A stretch of DNA of 64,000 nucleotides from positions 21,596-85,595 of the forward strand of contig JAPKEJ010000005.1 in assembly GCA_028822155.1 (NCBI GenBank), written 5' to 3'. Position 1 is the stretch's first letter. Each line of letters begins with the position of its first letter. Origin of the DNA: Porticoccaceae bacterium. GTDB lineage: Bacteria; Pseudomonadota; Gammaproteobacteria; Pseudomonadales; Porticoccaceae. The notes under the pieces are model-generated. The model made no database searches. It saw nothing but the letters and a program-made list of their open reading frames with translations, and was not told where the DNA came from. The position numbers were made by a program, and so were the translations under genes. Positions 23,384 to 55,991 of the stretch are shown piece after piece.

Positions 23384-24349
23384 TCATACGGGGGGTTCAG
23401 TTGGGCGGTATAATTCAGCGATTTCTCTCAATAAGACCGTCGCGTAACAACCTTTGGGCAGACTAAATTGTAACTTTAATTGATCCCTTTCAATCCAGTC
23501 GCTTACTATGTTTTCGGGTCGCACCAAAACACTTCGACGCTGCTGAGTTAAACCCGCGTGTTCAAGCGCATAACACCAATTCTCCCACGGCGCTAAAACC
23601 TGACTTTCAATTTCACCAATCACACCGCCAACCGATGATCGTCCTCGCCCCCACAAAGGTCCGGTGTCACCGCCTTCTGCAGTCAGGTACAGCTGATTTT
23701 CGTTGATCCGTTTTTCAACGACGAGGTTAAATAGCCAGGAACGAGCTGCAGACAGATATAAACCAGTGCCATGCCGATTCCCTTTTAGCTTGTCCGCACT
23801 GATTAATGCTTGAGCCTCACCAAGATTATTGCCTTGGTGACCGAACCGTTGCTCACCAAAATAATTAGGCATCCCGCATTTTTGTATTACATGTAAGCGG
23901 TCTTGCAGCGCTGTCGCGTCCGCCGAGAAATTACGCAGAATAATCTGGAATTTATTACCCTGGTGCATCCCTCTTCGCAGTTTCTTAGTATGCCTAGCCG
24001 CGCTTACGATCTGGAAATCGTCATGCTTCAAACAGCCTAAATCTAGATCGCGTCCTGGTAGATATAAACTGAACCATTGACTGGTCACGGCGTACCGATC
24101 TTTGAGTCCACAGAAACCAACATCATTGCGCTTTACGCCAGCTAGTTGCGCGAGTAATCCTGCCACCCAAGAGGTATTTTGATCTCGCTTGCTGATGAGT
24201 AGCCATAAATGCTCACCCTCACCGGAGGGTTTAAGATCCATGATTTCATCGACTATAAAATCCTCTGGCCGACTTCGAAATAAGGCCGACGCTAATGGCT
24301 TACCGTGCAGATAAGGGAGTCTATTGAAATTAAAATTATTAGTTTTAAT
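23384..24349 (-). CDS. truD: tRNA pseudouridine-13 synthase, probable ATT start
   Basis: Makes pseudouridine 13 in tRNA-Glu. The ORF track begins at ATG 24241, but the frame is open further upstream and encodes LPYLHGKPLASALFRSRPEDFIVDEI, the conserved TruD N-terminus (YLHGKP...PEDFxVxE). Upstream of that there is no ATG, GTG or TTG before the in-frame stops TGA/TAG; only ATT (24349) or CTT precedes it. The full product is about 321 aa (349 in E. coli). The catalytic Asp is in GLKDRYAVTSQW, followed by PNYFGEQRFGHQGNN and LSAARSWLFN. The frame begins 21 bases after ispF. ATT is my best start; a sequencing error is the alternative. Confidence 0.9.
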   Translation of the reverse strand: MKTNNFNFNRLPYLHGKPLASALFRSRPEDFIVDEIMDLKPSGEGEHLWLLISKRDQNTSWVAGLLAQLAGVKRNDVGFCGLKDRYAVTSQWFSLYLPGRDLDLGCLKHDDFQIVSAARHTKKLRRGMHQGNKFQIILRNFSADATALQDRLHVIQKCGMPNYFGEQRFGHQGNNLGEAQALISADKLKGNRHGTGLYLSAARSWLFNLVVEKRINENQLYLTAEGGDTGPLWGRGRSSVGGVIGEIESQVLAPWENWCYALEHAGLTQQRRSVLVRPENIVSDWIERDQLKLQFSLPKGCYATVLLREIAELYRPTEPPV

Positions 24350-24370
24350 AAGTCACTATCGCCCGTAAAA

Positions 24371-24850
24371 TCAAGCGCCTGAGGGCATTAAGAGAGCCGT
24401 AGCATAGCAGGCTATACCTTCTTCACGTCCAATAAAACCGAGCTTTTCAGTAGTGGTCGCTTTGATGTTTATTTGTCCATTATCACAACCTAAAATAGTC
24501 GAAATGTTTAATTTCATTGCTTCTAAATATGGCGCCATTTTAGGAGTCTGAGCCACAATCGTAAGATCCGCGTTACCCAAGGAGTAACCTTGCACTGACA
24601 TCATTTCAACAACCACACTCAATAATTCTAGGCTATCACTACCACGATATTGCTCATCCGTATCTGGAAAATGATGGCCAATATCACCCAGACCAAGGCC
24701 GCCAAGAAGGGCGTCAATCAAGGCATGAACAAGCACATCACCATCTGAATGAGCTTTAAATGCTCGATCAAAAGGAATGCTCACACCACCCAAAATTAAT
24801 CCAGTACCCGATCCAAAGGCGTGTACATCATAACCCTGCCCTATACGCAT
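24371..24850 (-). CDS. ispF: 2-C-methyl-D-erythritol 2,4-cyclodiphosphate synthase
   Basis: Cyclises CDP-ME-2-phosphate to MEcPP in the non-mevalonate isoprenoid pathway. The N-terminal metal motif RIGQGYDVHAF and the second His segment AHSDGDVLVHALIDALLGGLGLGDIGHHFPDTD are intact. The C-terminal NIKATTTEKLGFIGREEGIACYATALL matches the family. Exactly 159 aa, as in E. coli. It overlaps the ispD end by 10 bases, so the two are co-translated. Confidence 0.97.
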   Translation of the reverse strand: MRIGQGYDVHAFGSGTGLILGGVSIPFDRAFKAHSDGDVLVHALIDALLGGLGLGDIGHHFPDTDEQYRGSDSLELLSVVVEMMSVQGYSLGNADLTIVAQTPKMAPYLEAMKLNISTILGCDNGQINIKATTTEKLGFIGREEGIACYATALLMPSGA

Positions 24851-54623: not shown

Positions 54624-54713
54624 GCTTAATGGCCAATCTAAATCAAAAGCTGGTTGCCAAAACTAAAAAAGTAATTCAACATAACCGACCCTAATGTTAA
54701 TGGATACCAATAC

Positions 54714-55991
54714 TTGGACGGTTCATACCCCCTAGCCTTGTGGGCAGCACTAATAATTCTGCTACTTATATCGGCTTTTTTCTCCGGATCAGAAACCGGG
54801 ATGATGTCTCTAAATCGCTATAGGCTTAGACACCAAAGGAAAAAAAGCGCAGGTGCCCGTAGAGCGGCAAAATTGCTGGCAAAACCAGATAAACTGATTG
54901 GCCTAATATTAATAGGCAATAACTCAGTAAATATTCTCGCTGCGATCATCGCTAACATGCTAGCTATCCATTACGTTGGCAAAGCGGCAGCTCCATGGGT
55001 GGCAACGGCATCCTTGACTATCTTAGTGCTGGTTTTCTCAGAGGTCACCCCAAAAACTATTGCTGCGCAGAACCCAGAATGGTTTGCCTTTAAAGCGAGT
55101 CACATCCTTAAGCCTCTTCTACAGTTGTTCTCCCCACTTGTCTGGATGGTGAATACTCTAACTAATGGAATGGTGTCGCTACTGGGCTTCGATCCAAACA
55201 AGGATCGGGATGATGGACTAGACTCAGAGGAACTCAAGTCATTAGTCGACATCTCAGGCCATAAGCTGTCAGCCAGCCACCAAGAGATGCTAAGGGGAAT
55301 CCTAGACCTCGAAAATGTTACTGTCGAAGACATAATGATACCTCGTAACGAAGTAAAGGGCTTAGATCTAGAAGAAAGTATCGATGATCTAATGACTTCA
55401 ATCCTTGATTCAGAATACACACGGCAACCCATCTATGAAGGTGATATCAATAATATAATCGGTATCTTCCATGGCCGAAAAGCTAATCACCTTTTGCGAT
55501 CAAAAAATGTAACCCATAGCACTATTAAACGTTTTGCTGAGGAAGCCTACTTTATTCCCGAAAGCACGACACTGACCAAGCAGCTACTTAATTTCAGGCA
55601 AACTAAGAATCGATTTGCTGTAGTCGTAGACGAATATGGCGAAGTGCAGGGTCTGGTAACCCTCGAAGATATTCTCGAGGAAATCGTCGGAGACTTCACT
55701 ACTAATACCGCCGATGAGGTGGAGGAAGTCGTCGCTAAAAACGATGGGAGTTATGAAATTAATGGTGCCGCCACCGTTCGAGAGATAAACAAAGCCACTG
55801 GCTGGACTCTACCCACTGATGGGCCAAAAACGTTAAATGGTTTAGCCTTGGAACAATTAGAAAGTATTCCTGATGGCAATGTCAGTTTTTTGGTCGAGGG
55901 TTATCGGTTTGAAACCGAACAAATTAATGGCACGATGATCAAAAAGATCAGGGTAACTCGCATGCGTCAGAAAAAAATACCTGAGGACTAA
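54714..55991 (+). CDS. CNNM/CBS-domain protein (YfjD, HlyC/CorC family)
   Basis: Membrane protein of a family linked to Mg2+/Co2+ efflux. The N-terminal CNNM domain has LLLISAFFSGSETGMMSLNRYRLRHQ, LIGLILIGNNSVNILAAIIANMLA, and SEVTPKTIAAQNPEW. Then come a CBS pair (VTVEDIMIPRNEV; FAVVVDEYGEVQGLVTLEDILEEIVGDF) and a CorC_HlyC C-terminal domain (DGSYEINGAATVREINKATGW). 425 aa (428 in E. coli YfjD). The start is a TTG (54714) with a weak GGATA upstream; nearby ATGs are out of frame. Confidence 0.92.
   Translation: MDGSYPLALWAALIILLLISAFFSGSETGMMSLNRYRLRHQRKKSAGARRAAKLLAKPDKLIGLILIGNNSVNILAAIIANMLAIHYVGKAAAPWVATASLTILVLVFSEVTPKTIAAQNPEWFAFKASHILKPLLQLFSPLVWMVNTLTNGMVSLLGFDPNKDRDDGLDSEELKSLVDISGHKLSASHQEMLRGILDLENVTVEDIMIPRNEVKGLDLEESIDDLMTSILDSEYTRQPIYEGDINNIIGIFHGRKANHLLRSKNVTHSTIKRFAEEAYFIPESTTLTKQLLNFRQTKNRFAVVVDEYGEVQGLVTLEDILEEIVGDFTTNTADEVEEVVAKNDGSYEINGAATVREINKATGWTLPTDGPKTLNGLALEQLESIPDGNVSFLVEGYRFETEQINGTMIKKIRVTRMRQKKIPED

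Follow-up and report, generated by a model that had tools for sequence, protein, structure and literature searches.

The ispF-truD locus

The window, that is, the entire 64,000-nucleotide stretch that was analysed, lies on contig C90 of a 2.44-Mb MAG (108 contigs; 89% complete), whose closest named relatives are Porticoccaceae/SAR92 MAGs. Its minus-strand gene order includes eno, ftsB, ispD, ispF, truD and pcm, of which ispF, truD and pcm were checked against protein families, and eno, ftsB and ispD were read from their translations. The ispF gene (24371–24850, minus strand; PF02542, E 2e-65; TIGR00151 above cut-off) has an ordinary ATG and ends in TGA (24373–24371), with 21 nt separating this stop from an ATT codon (24349–24347, minus strand) that is the putative start of truD. 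The truD frame is bounded upstream by two consecutive in-frame stops (24353–24358, minus strand; TAG at 24358–24356 and TGA at 24355–24353), after which it reads CTT (24352), ATT (24349), AAA, ACT and onwards to YLHGKPLASALFRSRPEDFIVDEI, and it remains open from CTT to the stop at 23384. Counted from ATT, the predicted coding sequence (CDS; 23384–24349, minus strand) comprises 321 codons plus the stop; the first in-frame ATG lies only at 24241–24239.

Among the 37 truD-frame codons preceding ATG 24241 in the window, none is ATG, GTG or TTG, and no AUN codon other than ATT 24349 occurs between the stops and the conserved TruD N-terminus. The first-pass annotation, made from the sequence of the window, had already remarked that no canonical start lies between the TGA and TAG stops and the N-terminus, and this was seen again here. 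A run of 37 codons free of canonical starts is expected by chance in ~17% of cases in one genome (simple estimate, (61/64)^37); it is the presence of conserved protein sequence upstream of the ATG, together with recurrence across the genus (below), that marks the missing start as more than chance. A search of Rfam returned no match within the window, and folding of the start-region RNA was not unusual (z 0.05).

Conserved TruD sequence upstream of the first ATG

The translated frame matched PF01142 (TruD) at 191 bits against a cut-off of 27 (E 4e-56; match from residue 14), TIGR00094 at 177.6 bits against a cut-off of 172.2, and Escherichia coli TruD (1sb7) at E 8e-53. Both profile matches extend upstream of ATG 24241, and the alignment of E. 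coli TruD structures with the extended frame begins at residue 7 of the latter, which bears out the earlier claim that the conserved N-terminus precedes this ATG. Moreover, the catalytic motif G-x-KD-x-x-A-V-T-x-Q is present, with GLKDRYAVTSQW aligned to GQKDKHAVTEQW of E. coli. By family profile and catalytic motif, the truD product is identified as tRNA pseudouridine(13) synthase.

To the segment between ATT and the first ATG (24242–24346, minus strand), the comparison of five close species assigned 7, 0 and 17 variable sites at codon positions 1, 2 and 3, respectively, and 14 of its 21 variable codons differ only synonymously. This substitution pattern indicates that the stretch evolves as translated sequence. 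Translation from ATG 24241, with the upstream similarity as a relic, would make use of the earliest canonical start available in frame, yet it would remove the conserved PEDF-x-V-DE strand, it is at odds with the coding-type evolution of the codons upstream, and the E. coli TruD structures include the very segment that would be lost. Furthermore, as far as initiation at this codon can be judged by computation, the codon is not conserved: only 8 of the 50 genus members have ATG at the homologous position. Initiation at ATG 24241, inside the conserved domain, is thus considered very improbable.

An ATT or ATC codon is conserved across the genus

The 5′ ends of truD were read in all 50 members of the SAR92-type genus (g1) that had a match, most of these sequences being MAGs. 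The closest relatives, G007 (94% protein identity) and G027, G023 and G003 (86–87%), carry CTT ATT AAA at the same place. Across the genus, ATT or ATC occupies the homologous codon in ~41 of the 50 members, with ATG there in none of the 41. In 30 members, the stretch that runs from the upstream stop (or from the end of ispF) to the P(Y/R)LHG anchor is free of ATG, GTG and TTG codons; in 8 further members the only canonical codon is an ATG or TTG at −1 of the anchor, inside the domain, which could yield a slightly shorter TruD. Altogether, 38 of the 50 members are without a usable canonical truD start. Three ATC-bearing members have a canonical codon farther upstream (ATG in L018 and GTG in L107, both inside ispF; TTG in L110).

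The ATT/ATC codon is most often positioned 11 codons before the anchor. In a few species it is shifted to −16 to −26 (−14 in L106) by DSQ-type repeats between start and domain, while in L114 and L116 an ATT is found at −12, two bases after the ispF stop and behind GAGG. With no AUG, GUG or UUG before the N-terminus and with the position of the AUN codon conserved, truD shows two of the features expected of the infC/pcnB type of AUN start.

ATT 24349 had been proposed in the first-pass annotation as the probable start, with an alignment of relatives' truD starts as a check; that alignment, now run, favours the proposal. It also bears on the possibility that the true codon is ATG, or that a nearby ATG was lost, through an error of sequencing or assembly. 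In support of such an error, the genome is an incomplete MAG. However, the same ATT is present in G007, G027, G023 and G003, and ATT or ATC in ~36 further species, including the single-contig genomes G017 and G022, so that assembly quality is not the cause. Relatives with ATG at the site, the pattern expected of an erroneous base here, were not what the independent assemblies contained; since they carry the same codon, the error is refuted and is given next to no probability. Retention of AUU/AUC in ~41 of 50 species instead indicates a long-lived biological feature.

Initiation at another near-cognate codon, either CTT 24352, which had been the second candidate, or CTG 24310 of YLHG, deserves separate consideration, as both are in frame and CUG is a rare start in surveys, with two AUG-to-CUG switches (PMC5622118). 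Yet CTT aligns with CTC, CTA, TTT, TAT, GCA, CCT and others in relatives, and this variability, set against the fixed ATT/ATC, disfavours it. The CTG lies inside the conserved domain and is represented in relatives by CTG, TTA, CTC, TTT, CGC and others, and the Shine-Dalgarno signal (below) fits the ATT/ATC site. Use of either codon is therefore improbable.

Several variants of the truD 5′ region and CDS were also observed. In L030, L031, L110, L112, L113 and L117 of g1, a variable run of DSQ-type repeats separates the ATC from the TruD domain, and the length of the N-terminal extension differs among close species. L017, L020 and L100 form a clade of g1 that is back to TTG/ATG and whose N-terminal extensions contain repeats such as PSMTEPSVT, some with ATG/GTG codons. 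The truD match of L118 (G016 C1:200419-201388) is split in two, and the truD of G122 (C27:49734-50661) contains several in-frame stops; in each case frameshifts, assembly errors or decay may be responsible.

Shine-Dalgarno signal and spacing to ispF

When the sequences were aligned on ATT/ATC, the anti-Shine-Dalgarno duplex profile peaked 13–17 nt upstream at about −3.8 kcal mol−1, with flanks near zero or positive. The mean best duplex of the group was −3.9 kcal mol−1 versus −2.0 kcal mol−1 at background positions (Mann–Whitney P value of 1e-9, inflated by the treatment of related species as independent). While the signal is clear for the group, the window's own truD has a weak motif, GGGCGA (24359–24364, minus strand; −2.9 kcal mol−1), at a place where relatives show GGAG, GAGG or CGGA.

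The distance from the ispF stop to the truD start ranges from 2 to 74 nt among relatives and falls in all three frames, with the Shine-Dalgarno-like motif and the AUU/AUC codon moving together. This matters for the idea that ribosomes pass from ispF into truD by frameshifting or read-through of a stop, so that TruD is an IspF extension that needs no start codon. The idea draws on ispF being directly upstream and on the truD frame being open into ispF in many relatives. Against this, in the window the two genes already share a frame and are separated by three in-frame stops, and the variable distance across all three frames rules out a frameshifted ispF-truD fusion, leaving the idea with a negligible probability. 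Together, the relatives' sequences, the evolution of the codons and the variable spacing led to rejection of a sequencing error, of the internal ATG and of an ispF frameshift or read-through fusion.

Start codons of other genes in the lineage

As a control, the starts of infC and ispF were read. For infC, the textbook AUU gene, the window's genome shows ATT together with a GGAG motif, as does every genus member read; thus, this lineage does use ATT as a start. For ispF, the start is ATG in 48 and GTG in 2 of the 50 members, a tally limited to g1, as elsewhere the regular expression often reads residue 2 for residue 1.

Among 279 ORFs around truD in five species, only truD was aligned over at least 30 residues before the window's first canonical start in all three divergent comparisons. 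Furthermore, a scan of 178 reciprocal ortholog pairs (two complete genomes, ~480 kb of each) gave nine raw candidates, which were reduced by eye to infC and truD; in the other seven, either an ATG/TTG coincides with the aligned start or lies close to it, or the upstream extension resembles chance or overlapping sequence. A separate case is the ORF at 54675–55991 (plus strand; start taken as TTG 54714), where 12 residues upstream of the TTG align with G011; the TTG, being present in both species, is probably its start.

The tRNA set of G017 is ordinary: three of its tRNAs carry CAU, one of them the initiator; a GAU tRNA for isoleucine occurs once, and no initiator carries GAU. An unusual initiator tRNA was rejected, as the initiator of G017 is of the ordinary CAU type.

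Distribution of the AUU/AUC start beyond the genus

In the sister genus g35, truD has ATG or TTG. Within g31, a second genus of the same family, ATT/ATC is found at six loci, placed four codons ahead of the first F in the N-terminal motif, with AAGG (four loci) or AGG (two loci) about 8–9 nt upstream; other g31 members have ATG one codon earlier. One g26 locus, L164, has ATT only. Three genomes of genus g23 yielded no truD match. Of 17 other families of the order, 16 show a canonical start within the stretch searched; in the 17th (L215) the anchor falls on an ATG.

Mapped onto a TruD tree, the AUU/AUC label requires 6 changes, versus 33 when labels are shuffled, which argues for a deep, heritable trait. 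On this tree the AUU/AUC start is old and has been gained or lost more than once; two clades of the genus have reverted to TTG/ATG.

At loci L038–L060, from Thiodiazotropha and other Gammaproteobacteria, TTG or GTG often seems to serve as the truD start, a hint that weak starts may be common for truD generally.

Proposed function of the weak start

The comparison gives good support to four observations, namely the absence of a canonical start, the conservation of AUU/AUC, coding-type evolution from the ATT onwards and the placement of the Shine-Dalgarno signal. We therefore propose, with a probability of roughly 0.88, that truD starts at ATT 24349, a genus-wide AUU/AUC start, and that the weak codon most likely limits TruD synthesis. 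Initiation itself at ATT, low expression, dependence on IF3 and any benefit to the cell are what we infer from these sequence patterns.

The CAU initiator tRNA decodes AUU, AUC and AUA weakly, and IF3 discriminates against all three. At truD, the ordinary CAU initiator would pair with ATT 24349 despite the mismatch at the third position and insert fMet. The weak codon, the modest Shine-Dalgarno motif and the close position behind ispF would together keep TruD at a small fraction of its operon partners, resulting in low TruD within the ispD-ispF-truD-pcm cluster, and ribosomes finishing ispF may assist truD initiation. The output of truD would then depend on how much IF3 is present and how strictly it discriminates, a sensitivity that has been reported for infC and pcnB. 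Such control of truD by IF3 is plausible. A broader proposal, which covers the SAR92-type genus and at least one other genus of its family, is that infC and truD are part of a small group of genes in which AUU/AUC is retained because it places their output under IF3, the trait having arisen separately within the family. It is tentative, and we put it at somewhat less than even odds. If true, it would tie a tRNA modification enzyme to the stringency of initiation.

A less purposeful account is that the AUU/AUC start is real but without regulatory meaning, being a tolerated weak start that drifts because TruD is needed only in traces. The return of canonical starts (TTG/ATG) in two genus clades fits with this account, and coupling from ispF to truD could supply enough initiation. 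However, drift should often turn a neutral weak start into AUG, and 41 species hold AUU/AUC with none having AUG at the site. As AUG is the favoured start codon (PMC5622118), its absence speaks against pure drift. Absence of regulation is a serious but minority possibility; this estimate concerns the purpose of the start and not its site, and the account overlaps with the preferred reading of a start that limits synthesis.

AUU is very seldom a native start codon: E. coli has just two such genes, infC and pcnB (PMC9410913), and AUG-to-AUU switches number 1 in 61,358 reconstructed starts (PMC5622118). In the literature searched, no report linked truD with an AUU start codon. By sequence comparison, truD appears to join the small known class of AUU/AUC-start genes, reliably as to the site and by prediction as to regulation. 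A gene that holds AUU/AUC across one genus, and again in another, offers a natural test case for whether selection favours weak starts as limiters of expression. In practical terms, gene callers restricted to ATG, GTG and TTG would cut the TruD N-terminus in these marine bacteria, or miss TruD.

Compared with infC (AUU/AUA start), truD has the same codon class, and in the window it shares the CTTATTAAAA context with infC of the genus, but its Shine-Dalgarno motif is weaker than the GGAG of infC. Moreover, infC is autoregulated by its own product, IF3, whereas control of truD could only be in trans, as for pcnB. The conserved non-canonical AUN starts of Staphylococcus cvfC1 (AUU) and ccpN (AUA) likewise stand in a Shine-Dalgarno context (PMC13009471); in S. 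aureus, conserved AUU/AUA starts yielded ~10% of the expression seen with AUG when the medium was poor (PMC13009471). Those are Firmicutes genes with extended Shine-Dalgarno motifs, whose starts were shown by ribosome profiling and reporters (PMC13009471), whereas truD has a moderate motif and a predicted start. E. coli pcnB, in the account of Binns and Masters (2002) as cited in PMC9410913, is like truD a chromosomal RNA-processing gene unrelated to IF3, and its inefficient AUU start is described there as limiting expression, a limitation that for truD is predicted. Unlike pcnB, truD is a different gene that sits in a cluster behind ispF and has kept AUU or AUC genus-wide. The pcnB of the window's own genome, unlike the AUU-started E. 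coli gene, has an ATG directly after a stop.
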